Assembly (NCBI GenBank): GCA_905235625.1
Contig: CAJOLX010000004.1
Location: 1 to 62,348 of the forward strand
Direction of reading: 5' to 3'
From: an uncultured Clostridia bacterium
Lineage (GTDB): Bacteria; Bacillota; Clostridia; Oscillospirales; Acutalibacteraceae
Length of the DNA stretch: 62,348 nucleotides
Positions 27,002-46,136 of this stretch are shown in pieces. Within the stretch, counting starts at the first letter, position 1. Each line of letters starts with the position of its first letter. Position numbers and translations under genes: made by a program. Under the pieces are notes generated by a model. That model was not told the origin of the DNA. It saw nothing but the letters and a program-made list of their open reading frames with translations, and did no database searches.

Positions 27002-27551
27002 CTATCGCCTATGGCGGTTTAGTGGGCTGTCGCCGATTTTGTTTATTGTTTTTTATTGGGGCTTACGCCGAATATATAGTCATAAGGGTCTTCGACGAGT
27101 CTATCGCCACACCCGGCACTGCGTGCCACCCTCTCCGTTCTTGGAGAGGGCCATTTCTACCTCTCAGCCTCTGTTTACCAACAGCCTCTTAACTCAGATA
27201 AGAGCAAACTGTAAGTAAGAAAATTTTAAAATGATAAAAATCGTTTTTTTAATTAAAACTGCACCAAACTCTCAAGCAAAATAAAAAGGTTGCTTTACTA
27301 TCCACCGAGCTTTAATTCTGCCGCAGTAGCTTTCGGAACCACCGCACCTTCTTGGCCCTCTCCAAGCACGGGGGCGAACCGCCGAAGCGCCGCCGGTGGC
27401 GGATGAAGCGAGGCGGTGAGGTGAAGAAACAAGGAGTATCACGAAGCGAACCAGCGAGTGAGACGACTATGTTTCTGAGGGGCAGGTGGCACGCAGTGCC
27501 GGGTGTGGCGATACATTCGGCTTGCCCATTAGACCGCCGCAGGCGATATAA
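27002..27551. repeat. Large imperfect inverted repeat region without a credible gene
   Basis: The left arm, from TATCGCCTATGGCGG at 27003, is mirrored by the right arm ending CCGCAGGCGATA at 27550. The best part is a perfect 29-bp pair: 27103-27131 (TATCGCCACACCCGGCACTG and so on) with 27485-27513. The left arm carries an extra 65 bp or so. Inside is CCCTCTCC-GTTCTT-GGAGAGGG (27131-27152), a perfect hairpin, whose half recurs at 27354-27386 and 46210-46243. The region holds an open frame at 27352-27612, Arg-rich and repeat-derived, which is not called as a gene. The rest (27156-27352) is AT-rich with no feature seen. Confidence 0.65.
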
Positions 27552-27584
27552 ATATTTTGCGATAGCAATCCTTATTAAATTGGT

Positions 27585-27852
27585 TTACCGCTTGCAAGGG
27601 CTGCCGTATTAAGATGAAGACGCCATTTTCTCCGCTCGCAGACAGTATCGCCGATACGGCAAGAGCGGAAAAATGGTGAAAAGCAAAAAATATATTTCAT
27701 TGAGTTGAAATGTTTCAGAGATTAAAGAAGCGTGGCACAAACTGACTGTTTGCACCACGCTGTTTTTATTCCTATTCTTTTTTGCTTTGTTCTTCGCTTA
27801 ATACGGAAGTCCCAATCAGAGGCACTTTGTTCTTCGCTTAAGACGGAAGTCC
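27585..27852 (-). repeat. Composite 3'-end element, copy B
   Basis: Read on the minus strand from the downstream end of the 27855 gene: a partial short form (27825-27852), a full short form (27771-27813), a terminator hairpin (27729-27761), then the inverse of the long form (27585-27694). The long form starts TTACCGCTTGCAAGGGCTGC on the plus strand, contains a 58-nt hairpin (27621-27678) and ends AAAAGCAAAAAA. The same order is found in opposite orientation at 45908-46136. Confidence 0.75.
27729..27767. terminator. Bidirectional terminator hairpin in composite copy B
   Basis: AGCGTGG (27729-27735) pairs with CCACGCT (27755-27761), with an inner CAAAC/GTTTG stem. The plus side continues TGTTTTTATT; the minus side TCTTTAATC. 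It would end the minus-strand membrane-protein operon and could also stop plus-strand transcripts. Confidence 0.7.
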
Positions 27853-27854
27853 TT

Positions 27855-28421
27855 TTAAAAAATTGCTATACACTGCCATACTATAAACGCAACCCAGAGA
27901 ATAAATATAATGCAGTTTTTCTCAAGGAACGCGCCGAGTCTTGTAACGGCGGCAAAGGGGAAGCCCAAAACTTTGCCCACGCTGTCCGCGGCTTTTCCGC
28001 CGACGGTCTTTTTGGCGCTCTTGCTGTAAGCAATATCCCAAAAATTCAATATATCCTCCGTAAGCGGGAAGAGACAGCAGAGCATCGAAACGCCTATATA
28101 CATTGATATAATATATATTATGAACATAACGACGTTTTCATAGGGAGTGATGCCGAGCTGAAACACGTTTATGTAGCCGAAGAAGAAGAATACAAGGCCC
28201 ATATTGAAATTCATAAAACCCGGGCCCGTTGCGATGAGATAAGCCGCAAACTGGCTCTTGGCGAGCGAATGCTCAACGTGGCCGCACGCTTCGTCAAGCC
28301 TCATATAGCCTGCGGGCTCAACCATGAGCTTGAGAATTCTGCAGGTGATATGCTCCCAGACGCATCTCATATAAGATCCCGGGAAGGTCAGATACTTTGT
28401 GATTATATAGAGAAGCCTCAT
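27855..28421 (-). CDS. Membrane protein of unknown function
   Basis: 188 residues, not assigned to a family. It has an amphipathic N-terminal part (LLYIITKYLTFPGSYMRCVWEHITCRI), a central CGHVEHSLAKS segment with two His, three hydrophobic segments (about 75-95, 105-130 and 170-188), and ends directly after the last one. The ATG at 28421 overlaps the upstream stop as ATGA; another in-frame ATG lies four codons earlier. The coupled zinc-ribbon protein upstream suggests a joint membrane function. Confidence 0.6.
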   Translation of the reverse strand: MRLLYIITKYLTFPGSYMRCVWEHITCRILKLMVEPAGYMRLDEACGHVEHSLAKSQFAAYLIATGPGFMNFNMGLVFFFFGYINVFQLGITPYENVVMFIIYIISMYIGVSMLCCLFPLTEDILNFWDIAYSKSAKKTVGGKAADSVGKVLGFPFAAVTRLGAFLEKNCIIFILWVAFIVWQCIAIF

Positions 28422-29977
28422 ATAAAGTCGCACGCTCCCTTCGTAAGAATATCTGCAAGCTCAATCTCGCCCGCTGCCCACTCTCTGACCACTTTCGGCA
28501 GCGCTGCGTCTTTGTAATCCTCGAGCACTTCGTCAATATATTGAGCGTTTGTGGTGTTCTTTTCGCCGAATTCTTTGCAGGCGCTGGTGCTCACGTAAAC
28601 GGTCGCCATAAGGATATCCGACGTGTAATATTCCGTTTCGCCGTAATAAGCGGCAAGATAATACGCGTTTTGCTCAGCGTTGTAAGCCGCCTCATACGCT
28701 TCGTCATATTTGCCCTGAGCAAGATAAACAAGAGCGCTCTGACGGTAGTATTCGGGGTTTGACTGGTTGGCTTCCATGGCCTCGGCGATTAAATTGAGAG
28801 CTCCCTCATAGTCGCCGTTTACTCTCATCATGTTAATTCTCAGGCTGTAGTTTGAGTCTGAGTCTCCGCCGTCTTCGAGAGTGTTCTTTTTGCAATATTC
28901 GTCAACCACTGCCTGCGCCTTGTCTTTTTCGCCTGTCTGAAGATAAACTCGCATGAGCATGGCGGTTGAATCGTAGTCGCTCGAATCCTCGCTTATCAGC
29001 TTCTCAATGTAAGGCACGGAGTCTTCGTATTTTTTGAGCGAAATAAGGTCGGCGGCAACGTCTTTATAATAAAGCCAGTAGAAATCTTCGCCCGATTTTT
29101 CCGCGTCGCCGTTGAGCTCGTCAATGTATTTATCAAGCTCTTCTTCGCTCAAATCGTAATATTTGGCGGCGCTGTAAATGAAATAGTCAAGTATAACGTT
29201 GTCAACGTCTTTCTCGCCCCTGTAATCCTCGAGCATTGAGATTATCGTTTCGCCGTTTTCGGGCGTGATCTCCTGCAATTCATCCATAAGGTTCACGGTG
29301 TCAAGAATGACGGTGTAGGTTTTTTCAAATCTTTCATACTCCGCCTTGCAGCGCTGATAAACCTCGTCCTTCGCGAGATATTTTTCGCTGACGCCTTCGC
29401 CGTAAGCGAACGTTGCGCTCTGATACGCCTTTATGGGGTCATAAACGTGCACAAGGGTGTTGAAAATTCTGGTTTTAAGGCCGTAGCCCGACGAAATGAA
29501 ATAATTGAGCTTTGAGCCGTCGCCCAAAATCCCCTTTATTTCGCTCTGCACGGACGCCACCCCGTTGTAGGAGGTGTATGCCGAAAACCAGTTCTTTTCA
29601 GCCGAATATTTGTCGCCCTTGAGCACCTGCACGCCCGACGCCGCCTGAAGGCAGACTATCAGCAGGCAAAAAAGGCACGCCGCGAGAGATAGTATTGCAA
29701 ATATTTTGCCGAGAAACGGCAACTTGGTCTTGCTGAGAGCTTCCTCGCATCTGTAGCAGTATTCGTGACCCTTTGAAACGGTCTTTTCGCCGCACCTCGG
29801 GCAAACGGGTCTGCCGCCGGCGGTCTGCTCCTCTTCTTTTAACTCTTCGGTTTCTTCAATATTTTCCGCAGCTTCTGCTGCCGATTCATCCGCCGTTTTC
29901 GCCTCTTCTTCGGTTACTTCCGGCTCTGTATCCGGGGTTGCGGACGGCTCAATATCTTCATTTAAGATTTTCGCCAA
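28418..29977 (-). CDS. Zinc-ribbon, single-pass membrane protein with TPR-like repeats
   Basis: 519 residues. An acidic low-complexity N-terminus (about 1-55, Glu/Ala-rich) is followed by a zinc ribbon CPRCGEKTVSKGHEYCYRC (near 60-78), one membrane helix (about 90-115) and a long helical outside part. The latter has TPR-like units such as YYRQSALVYLAQGKYDEAYE near 430. Function unknown; such proteins may sense or scaffold at the envelope. TTG at 29977 was preferred because AAAGGGTGA lies 5 nt upstream; a GTG three codons earlier overlaps that site. Confidence 0.7.
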   Translation of the reverse strand: MAKILNEDIEPSATPDTEPEVTEEEAKTADESAAEAAENIEETEELKEEEQTAGGRPVCPRCGEKTVSKGHEYCYRCEEALSKTKLPFLGKIFAILSLAACLFCLLIVCLQAASGVQVLKGDKYSAEKNWFSAYTSYNGVASVQSEIKGILGDGSKLNYFISSGYGLKTRIFNTLVHVYDPIKAYQSATFAYGEGVSEKYLAKDEVYQRCKAEYERFEKTYTVILDTVNLMDELQEITPENGETIISMLEDYRGEKDVDNVILDYFIYSAAKYYDLSEEELDKYIDELNGDAEKSGEDFYWLYYKDVAADLISLKKYEDSVPYIEKLISEDSSDYDSTAMLMRVYLQTGEKDKAQAVVDEYCKKNTLEDGGDSDSNYSLRINMMRVNGDYEGALNLIAEAMEANQSNPEYYRQSALVYLAQGKYDEAYEAAYNAEQNAYYLAAYYGETEYYTSDILMATVYVSTSACKEFGEKNTTNAQYIDEVLEDYKDAALPKVVREWAAGEIELADILTKGACDFI

Positions 29978-45028: not shown

Positions 45029-45895
45029 ATGAAATCATTCACTTTGGAAACCGCCGACGGCCTCGTTTTAAGCGGCTCCGTTTTTGAGGCGGAAAACGCT
45101 TCGGCGGTCGTTCAAATCGTTCACGCCTTTAAAGGGCACAAGGAGCGTTATTACCGTTTGGCTGAGTTTCTGCTCTCAAAGGGATATACAACTGTTATAA
45201 CAGACCTTCGCGGTCACGGCGAAAGCGTAAACGCCAAATATTTTGCGGGCCACGTCGGCTCTGCGCAGGAGCTTTTGAACGACCAGGTTCTCGTGACCGG
45301 TTATATAAATGAAAACTACCCCGGCAAAGACGTTTATTTGCTCGGCGATTCTCAGGGCTCAATGATTGCAAGGCTCTACCTCAAAGACCACGACAAGCTG
45401 ATTAAAAAAGCCGTGCTCACGGGCGCGTGGGCTCCGTCGCGCCTCAGCCGCATAAGGCGCAGCTATTGCGCTTTTTCCGCAAGCCTTCACAAGGATATCA
45501 CTGCAAACGGGCATTTGGCTGCAAGGGCAAACAGACCGAGCGAAAATTATCTTTTTACAAACTACACTGCCGTGTCGGAATACGTTAACGACCCGCTCGT
45601 TCAAAACTGCATGCTGACTAACGGCACGATTTATGCCGCCGCGGACGCTTCTTTTCTCGCAACCCAGGCGCCGATCCACACCTGTGAAAATCCCGACCTC
45701 AGAATTCTCATCGCCTGCGGAGCGCTTGACAAATGCGGCGCGCCGAAACAGATGCAGAGGACTGTGAATTACCTAAAGCGTGACGGCTACAGGCACGTTT
45801 TTTCGGTATCTTACCCCGAAATGAAGCACTGCGTGCTGGAAGAAATGTATGCGGAAGAGGTATATGAAGATATAGCTGCTTTCCTCTCCGATTGA
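45029..45895 (+). CDS. Alpha/beta-hydrolase (lysophospholipase/monoacylglycerol lipase-like)
   Basis: 288 residues, no signal peptide. The Serine hydrolase motifs are VVQIVHAFKGHKERYYRLAE (oxyanion region), TDLRGHGES, the nucleophile elbow LLGDSQGSMIA (Ser near 113), a candidate Asp in CGALDKCG and His in EMKHCVLEE. It hydrolyses an ester, probably of a lipid or small acyl compound. It is a single gene, and the composite repeat with its terminator starts 12 bp after the stop. Confidence 0.88.
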   Translation: MKSFTLETADGLVLSGSVFEAENASAVVQIVHAFKGHKERYYRLAEFLLSKGYTTVITDLRGHGESVNAKYFAGHVGSAQELLNDQVLVTGYINENYPGKDVYLLGDSQGSMIARLYLKDHDKLIKKAVLTGAWAPSRLSRIRRSYCAFSASLHKDITANGHLAARANRPSENYLFTNYTAVSEYVNDPLVQNCMLTNGTIYAAADASFLATQAPIHTCENPDLRILIACGALDKCGAPKQMQRTVNYLKRDGYRHVFSVSYPEMKHCVLEEMYAEEVYEDIAAFLSD

Positions 45896-45907
45896 TGCAC
45901 GACTTTG

Positions 45908-46136
45908 GGCTTCCGTATTAAGCGAAGAACAAAGCAAAAAAAGAATATGAATAAGAATAGCAAGGTGCGAAAATTATACCTCGCGCCTTGCTTTTCTTTT
46001 CTCCGAAATCTATATGCTCGTTAATTTATATTTTTTTGCTTTTCGCCATTTTTCCGTCCTTGCCGTGCAACAGCACTGTCTACGGACGGAGAAAACGGCG
46101 TCTTCATCTTAATACGGCAGCCCTTGCAAGCGGTAA
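45908..46136 (+). repeat. Composite 3'-end element, copy A
   Basis: Short form (45908-45954), terminator hairpin (45959-45992), then the inverse of the long form (46027-46136). The long form matches 27585-27694 almost base for base outside the paired arms. Its hairpin (46044-46100) has different but still complementary stems. The stretch 46137-46260 has no gene; it holds only the CCCTCTCC repeat near 46210. Confidence 0.75.
45959..46000 (+). terminator. Terminator of the hydrolase gene
   Basis: An 11-bp stem (AGCAAGGTGCG with CGCGCCTTGCT, one G-U pair) with a 12-nt loop, followed by TTTTCTTTT. It is part of composite element copy A. Confidence 0.82.

Follow-up and report, generated by a model that had tools for sequence, protein, structure and literature searches.

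Two hairpins kept on opposite strands in a dispersed repeat of about 216 nt that borders convergent stop codons in uncultured gut Clostridia

REP and BIME sequences with their RAYT transposases are bulged hairpins that occur in many copies at gene 3' ends. Small dispersed repeats of another kind, the BOX, RUP and SPRITE repeats of S. pneumoniae, are described in parts of PMC3049150 as enriched between convergent genes. According to the same parts, BOX is modular, BOX and RUP fold via paired terminal repeats, and SPRITE is similar to a Rho-independent terminator near gene 3' ends, for which co-option as a terminator was suggested. Bacterial MITEs such as ERIC, NEMIS/Correia and RPE are non-autonomous, carry terminal inverted repeats, can be folded and are dispersed (sections of PMC2229807), and group IIC introns are structured elements which settle just after transcription terminators (sections of PMC8919778). 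The element described here is, when compared by description only, nearest in kind to the pneumococcal BOX, RUP and SPRITE repeats. No description of it was found in the portions covered of the literature on structured RNAs, MITEs in Ruminococcaceae, convergent-gene or bidirectional terminators, repeats and retrotransposition, and terminators together with mobile elements.

The window is the whole analysed stretch of 62,348 nucleotides from an uncultured Clostridia bacterium (its genome is G000; other G numbers are comparison genomes). The initial annotation had drawn two long-form hairpins in it, at 27621-27678 on the plus strand and at 46044-46100 on the minus strand, as a candidate structured RNA. 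Both hairpins are present at these positions and fold as drawn. The selected fold on the drawn strand stands. Rather than an RNA gene in its own right, however, the hairpin forms a module within a dispersed repeat of about 216-220 nt, the two ends of which pair. The parts are named P1 (closing arms), P2 (the bulged hairpin, near the 5' side), P3 (long-range stem) and P4 (second hairpin), and plus and minus are also used below for the strand of P2 and its opposite. The features are as follows.

27597-27812, plus: copy 1, a full long-form element; the outer arms AGGGCTGCCGTATTAAG and CTTAATACGGAAGTCC pair, and there are matches in its own genome
27597-27613, plus: P1 5' arm of copy 1, 14/17 ungapped matches to the 3' arm
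27621-27678, plus: P2 of copy 1, from the fold and a match of covariance model R1 (27607-27689, 93.9 bits)
27679-27690, plus: P3 5' strand of copy 1, pairing with about 27778-27789 in the fold; within-copy complementarity is seen across copies
27729-27761, minus: P4 of copy 1, a terminator-like hairpin read for the gene 27855-28433 (minus), from the P4 wobble asymmetry
27778-27789, plus: P3 3' strand of copy 1, from the fold
27790-27812, plus: P1 3' arm of copy 1, from repeat and arm matches
27825-27852, plus: leftover of an additional 3' arm, seen as direct repeat D1 and inverted repeat I6; it separates copy 1 from the stop codon of 27855-28433 (minus)
45905-46124, minus: copy 2, a full long-form element (R1 match 46033-46114, 100.6 bits)
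46044-46100, minus: P2 of copy 2, from the fold
45959-45992, plus: P4 of copy 2, putative terminator of gene 45029-45895 (plus), from sequence and the P4 wobble asymmetry
94-181, plus: 5'-truncated copy reduced to P4 (98-131) and the 3' arm; it matches positions 125-212 of a full copy at 93%

Copy 1 together with the extra arm remnant ends at gene 27855-28433 (minus), and the 3' end of copy 2 and the stop of an alpha/beta-hydrolase ORF (45029-45895, plus) are 10 nt apart. The final codons of trpA (167-949, minus; Pfam Trp_syntA), stop included, come from the arm of the truncated copy, and the trpA product ends in ...GLPY*. Just upstream of copy 1, at 27096-27519, a 35-nt inverted repeat (94%) encloses about 354 nt, and parts of this region resemble repeats beside elements in G009. 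The motif TCARAGGCAC occurs at 27813-27824 and in many copies in G000, G009 and G060; it lies between the element and the older arm remnant in G000 and just 5' of the element in G009 and G060. The 5' side of G009 elements (e.g. L171, L174, L176) carries a pile-up of several other repeats, and no other repeat was noticed between element 3' end and gene stop in the G009 copies. A second repeat with its own inverted ends lies inside P2 of five copies of the window genome, where it replaces the 3' strand of the P2 middle stem.

G000 C8:41630-41801, C7:107262-107433, C23:22758-22929, C41:36051-36222 and C69:16-187: 172-nt inner repeat

P2 of copy 1 has a minimum free energy of -25.9 kcal/mol (z -4.4) and P2 of copy 2 of -30.0 (z -5.5), and in both cases 0/200 dinucleotide shuffles were as stable. 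The reverse strand of the copy 1 hairpin folds fairly well too (-24.5, z -3.6; 1/200 shuffles as stable), so the strand is not readable from a single P2 sequence. The entire elements adopt closed multi-branched folds at -88.4 kcal/mol (z -8.9) for copy 1 and -95.9 kcal/mol (z -10.4) for copy 2, with 0/200 shuffles as good. The sequence bears out the differences between the two hairpins on which the initial annotation relied: the middle stem is CCGCTC/GAGCGG in one and CCGTCC/GGACGG in the other, the apical stem GTATC/GATAC versus GTGC/GCAC, G-U exchanges are found in the outer stem, and AGACA and GGCAA are identical. The selected structure deduced from them is supported far beyond two copies by covariation. 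When 34 P2 copies from seven genomes were aligned with MAFFT without structure, double changes appeared in 14/20 pairs; 94.8% of cells were paired versus 82.3% in shuffles, and the covariation of 0.422 (0.194 shuffled) was reached by 0/500 shuffles. Further pair types in this alignment (25) were not above shuffles (27.0). The covariance model R1 was built from these 34 copies, and with 88 distinct copies aligned to it double changes extend to 19/20 pairs, the covariation is 0.549 vs 0.184 shuffled, and further pair types number 53 vs 42.8. P2 is characterized by a bulged C and a GNA/RA internal loop, and in copies outside the genus the loops are kept and the stems changed. Such covariation would be compatible with a fold of single-stranded DNA as well as of RNA.

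The arms of P1, which contain an ATG/CG internal loop, show 14-17/17 matches in full copies, the best downstream partner of the 5' arm, typically with 14-16/17 matches, being found at about 210-220 nt; copies lacking a clear P1 partner show 10-12/17. In short forms of about 102 nt, which consist of P1 and P2 only, occur in other genera and are in part tandem, the best downstream match of the 5' arm is about 102 nt away. The fraction of paired P1 positions is 0.870 with the own arms, 0.733 with other copies of the same genome and 0.522 with other genomes; this is an upper estimate, because the 3' arm was chosen as the best match to its 5' arm and the arm-swap test thus favours own arms. For P3, the better-placed windows give 8/8 Watson-Crick pairs in 57% of 125 copies, versus 5% when the partner strand is taken from another genome; the effect is present in two of three windows and absent in window (-12,-4) (0.717 vs 0.702), and a badly placed window gave almost nothing (0.666 own vs 0.612 other genome). 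Tandem arrays of the hairpin unit with a spacing of about 104-144 nt were seen in L104/L116 and L127 (G253) and in L110/L122 (G103).

The folding strand of each hairpin can be recognized by its wobble pairs. On the folding strand a G-U pair is tolerated; the complementary strand then shows an A-C mismatch. In 178 distinct P2 sequences aligned to the model there are 121 GT and 23 AC cells, whereas in 75 P4 hairpins, located by Watson-Crick pairs alone, there are 17 GT and 62 AC cells; the copies are related, so that these cells are not independent. Counted genome by genome, GT exceeds AC for P2 in 28, AC exceeds GT in 3 and the two are equal in 12, versus 4, 17 and 7, respectively, for P4. A manual count in the alignment of 34 copies made without structure yields 20 GU vs 6 AC cells for P2, and P1 leans modestly to the plus strand (GT 105, AC 56). 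Because the GT/AC bias is opposite, P2 is kept as a plus strand fold, as it was originally drawn, and P4 as a fold of the opposite strand. The data show that two hairpins of one element are kept on opposite strands, a split that is a new observation. This bears on the idea that the repeat is an ordinary DNA MITE, with terminal inverted repeats moved by a DDE transposase and the inner hairpins as by-products of palindromes. The terminal inverted repeats, the size of about 216 nt and the dispersed, tandem and nested copies agree with it, as does the outer sequence GGGGCTGTC..., which may resemble IS ends of the IS1182 family. Double-stranded palindromes, however, should lack the GT/AC asymmetry, which P2 and P4 show in opposite senses, and the internal-loop bases are conserved while the stems covary; an ordinary MITE is therefore rather improbable.

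P4, with a GC-rich stem followed by a T-tract on the strand of the neighbouring gene, corresponds to a predicted intrinsic terminator. After the stem of the 75 hairpins T accounts for 5.04 of 8 positions on the minus strand vs 4.11 on the plus strand; T-richness is higher on the minus strand in 43/75 and lower in 16. The T-tract is weak in the window genome. Around copy 1 (27500-27900), P4 at 27729-27761 (minus) was the 1 terminator-like site found vs 0.5 expected. One promoter-like site was found in the same interval, on the minus strand and at chance level, with nothing pointing to a discrete P2 transcript.

The position of the element agrees with this prediction. The fetched loci contain 190 model matches, of which 178 were used and 12 dropped (P1 score under 12 of 16), and any open frame of 100 aa or more was counted as a gene. 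The 3' end of the element lies within -20..+40 nt of a convergent stop codon in 131/178 cases vs 355/4891 (7.3%) random positions, a control in which the positions were not restricted to intergenic DNA. A plus strand stop is close to the 5' end in 34 of the 178, and both ends are near stops in 27. This stop-codon rule is weaker in G020 (17/25) and G067 (5/9) and fails in G407 (0/7) and G253 (0/4). Since the 3' ends cluster at convergent stops, P4 sits at the point where a terminator is required by the convergent gene. Of 123 neighbours on the 5' side, 86 are convergent, vs 96 of 265 control pairs (169 not); transcription of P2 is doubtful at the other 37.

Two gene families illustrate the position. 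At tuf, 2/30 loci carry an element: in G030 it directly follows the stop and the usual hairpin terminator of other tuf loci is gone (by eye), and in G000 it lies about 180 nt behind an intact tuf terminator (by eye), at the end of the opposite gene. At a phosphoesterase gene the model matches in 5/30 loci. The element is right behind the stop in G063, G031 and G000, and by coordinates in G060 too; the match in G009 is about 270 nt off on the other strand and that in G061 is distant and weak. As judged by eye, G013 seemingly keeps a P4-like hairpin and a 3' arm remnant only, and G006 has an unrelated terminator. Elements are also shared at orthologous genes, with 78-88% identity, by three gene pairs between G000 and G009 and two between G000 and G060, which we judge commoner than expected from a chance rate obtained by rough arithmetic. 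Elements at the same orthologous gene in several species mean that part of the copies are old and inherited rather than new insertions.

An alternative is a cis-element of the host, with P2 acting as a functional RNA within the 3' UTR of the plus strand gene while P4 terminates the other gene; the unit would then be a shared terminator of convergent pairs spread by recombination only. The recurrence at orthologous genes and behind the phosphoesterase stop fits this explanation, and in several genomes with few copies the element takes up the space between two convergent genes, as in the 27 copies with both ends near stops. It is nevertheless unlikely in view of the copy number, which varies from 0 to 48 between congeners, of near-identical copies in unrelated flanks, of the copies without a convergent gene on the 5' side (37/123) and of the loss of P2 from 13 copies of the window genome which keep P4, similar to the remnant seen by eye in G013.

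Dispersal is evident from full-length pairs which are 92-97% identical although their flanks are unrelated. Among the best 14 pairs listed, one joins G001 and G014 (95.2% over 210 nt) and the rest are pairs within a genome (e.g. 96.7% over 213 nt). Most of the truncated copies noticed in the window genome retain P4. Its 13 5'-truncated copies start at positions 68-132 of about 216 and all keep P4 and the 3' arm; 11/13 end within -15..+21 nt of a convergent stop, and one (L373) is a head-to-head pair of 3' arms. Three copies damaged on the 3' side were noticed by eye, which is not an exhaustive count. Variable 5' truncation with a fixed 3' junction would be typical of a SINE-like retroelement whose plus strand RNA is reverse transcribed into the target, and the keeping of P2 on the plus strand points the same way. 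In no copy, however, does the truncation reach past the first bases of P4, so that selection for P4 accounts for it equally well, and no RVT_1 was found in G020, G060, G067 or G006. We consider a SINE-like origin highly improbable.

Searched with 237 nt of DNA, the window genome yielded 54 full and partial matches at E<=0.01, and the P2 model gave 25 matches at E<=0.01 and 27 at E<=1. With strict filters the model matches in 36/45 genomes of the genus (the window genome included), with 1 to 48 matches each. Among 394 sampled genomes of the order it matches in 14 at E<=0.001 (the window genome and 13 others), belonging to 7/169 genera and five families; in 398 genomes of the phylum it matches the window genome alone at E<=1e-4. 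The compared genomes are mostly incomplete MAGs. Rfam 15 gave 0 gathering-score matches in the window, with weak matches (E<=10) alone for 27500-27860. Over two sets of 15 element loci its only gathering-score matches were to Gut-1, outside the element. Gut-1 RNA (RF01706) was rejected as an identity: above gathering score it lies 84-112 nt 5' of two G103 elements (L122:1686-1773, minus; L128:1663-1744, minus), does not overlap them and differs in place and structure. Gut-1 is reported from human gut sequences only, according to parts of PMC2864571. The plasmid search gave no match to the element, and carriage by phage was discarded on the basis of viral contigs, where the sole pattern match lies in coding sequence and is without a model match.

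A candidate for the mobilising enzyme was sought among Y1 transposases and reverse transcriptases. The Y1 transposase PF01797 is present in 26/45 genomes of the genus and was not found in copy-bearing G000, G009, G060 and G015 (MAGs, incomplete), and the absence of a link between PF01797 and copy number led us to reject a RAYT partner. The reverse transcriptase PF00078 occurs in 19/45 genomes; G020, which is 96% complete and has 32 element copies, is among those lacking it, and a reverse transcriptase partner was likewise rejected, there being no link between PF00078 and copy number. No recurrent gene family was found beside the copies, the largest group of flanking proteins numbering four.

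Taken together, the covarying fold, the opposite strand bias of P2 and P4, the location of the elements at convergent stops, their dispersal and the survival of the P4 half in the window genome make it probable, though with modest confidence, that these repeats are a family of short non-autonomous mobile elements, in which P1/P2 is the structure for mobility and P4 a terminator that makes insertions tolerable. On the plus strand the P1 arms, the bulged P2 and the long-range P3 would fold into a fixed structure, of RNA or single-stranded DNA, which a protein supplied in trans may recognise for mobility. On the opposite strand P4, just after the stop of the convergent gene, would end the transcript of that gene. 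Termination at P4 would let the insertion be tolerated, and the P4 half would be kept after the P2 half has decayed. P2 is kept on one strand though copies without P2 serve equally at gene ends, and the simplest account is that the element requires P1/P2 in order to spread and P4 in order to be tolerated by its host. A role of P1/P2 in spread requires an enzyme acting in trans that reads a folded single strand. We infer recognition of P1/P2 by such a protein, actual termination at P4 and continuing mobility from this pattern.

More tentatively, one may think of a new class of mobile element, with a folded single-strand intermediate (RNA or DNA) recognised via covarying stems and fixed loops (GNA/RA, ATG/CG) and a terminator on the opposite strand that replaces the 3' end of the host gene; we regard this as possible but speculative. 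If the reading as non-autonomous mobile elements is right, they are an example of a selfish repeat that earns its keep through the transcription terminators it brings, and of selection on opposite strands for two hairpins of the same element, visible via wobble pairs alone; the P1/P2 structure could also serve to fish for the mobilising protein. In these uncultured gut Clostridia the ends of genes seem to be reshaped by repeats of this kind.

Compared with REP/BIME sequences, the present element is a much larger structure, and no Y1 transposase was found in four copy-bearing genomes including that of the window. To integron attC sites the element bears only a loose likeness, in that the folded strand is antisense to a gene and lies at its stop. 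Group IIC introns differ, as far as the sections of their description reach: the present element is only about 216 nt long, has no Rfam group II intron match in the window, is found without reverse transcriptase in several high-copy genomes and replaces the terminator, whereas the introns follow it. With MITEs, as described in the sections cited, it shares the non-autonomous nature, the terminal inverted repeats, the foldability and the dispersal; it is distinguished by the strand-asymmetric selection of its two inner hairpins and by its fixed orientation to the neighbouring stop. Judged from the partial descriptions of BOX, RUP and SPRITE, what sets the present element apart from these repeats is that it unites a covarying bulged hairpin on one strand with a predicted terminator on the other, set against stop codons.
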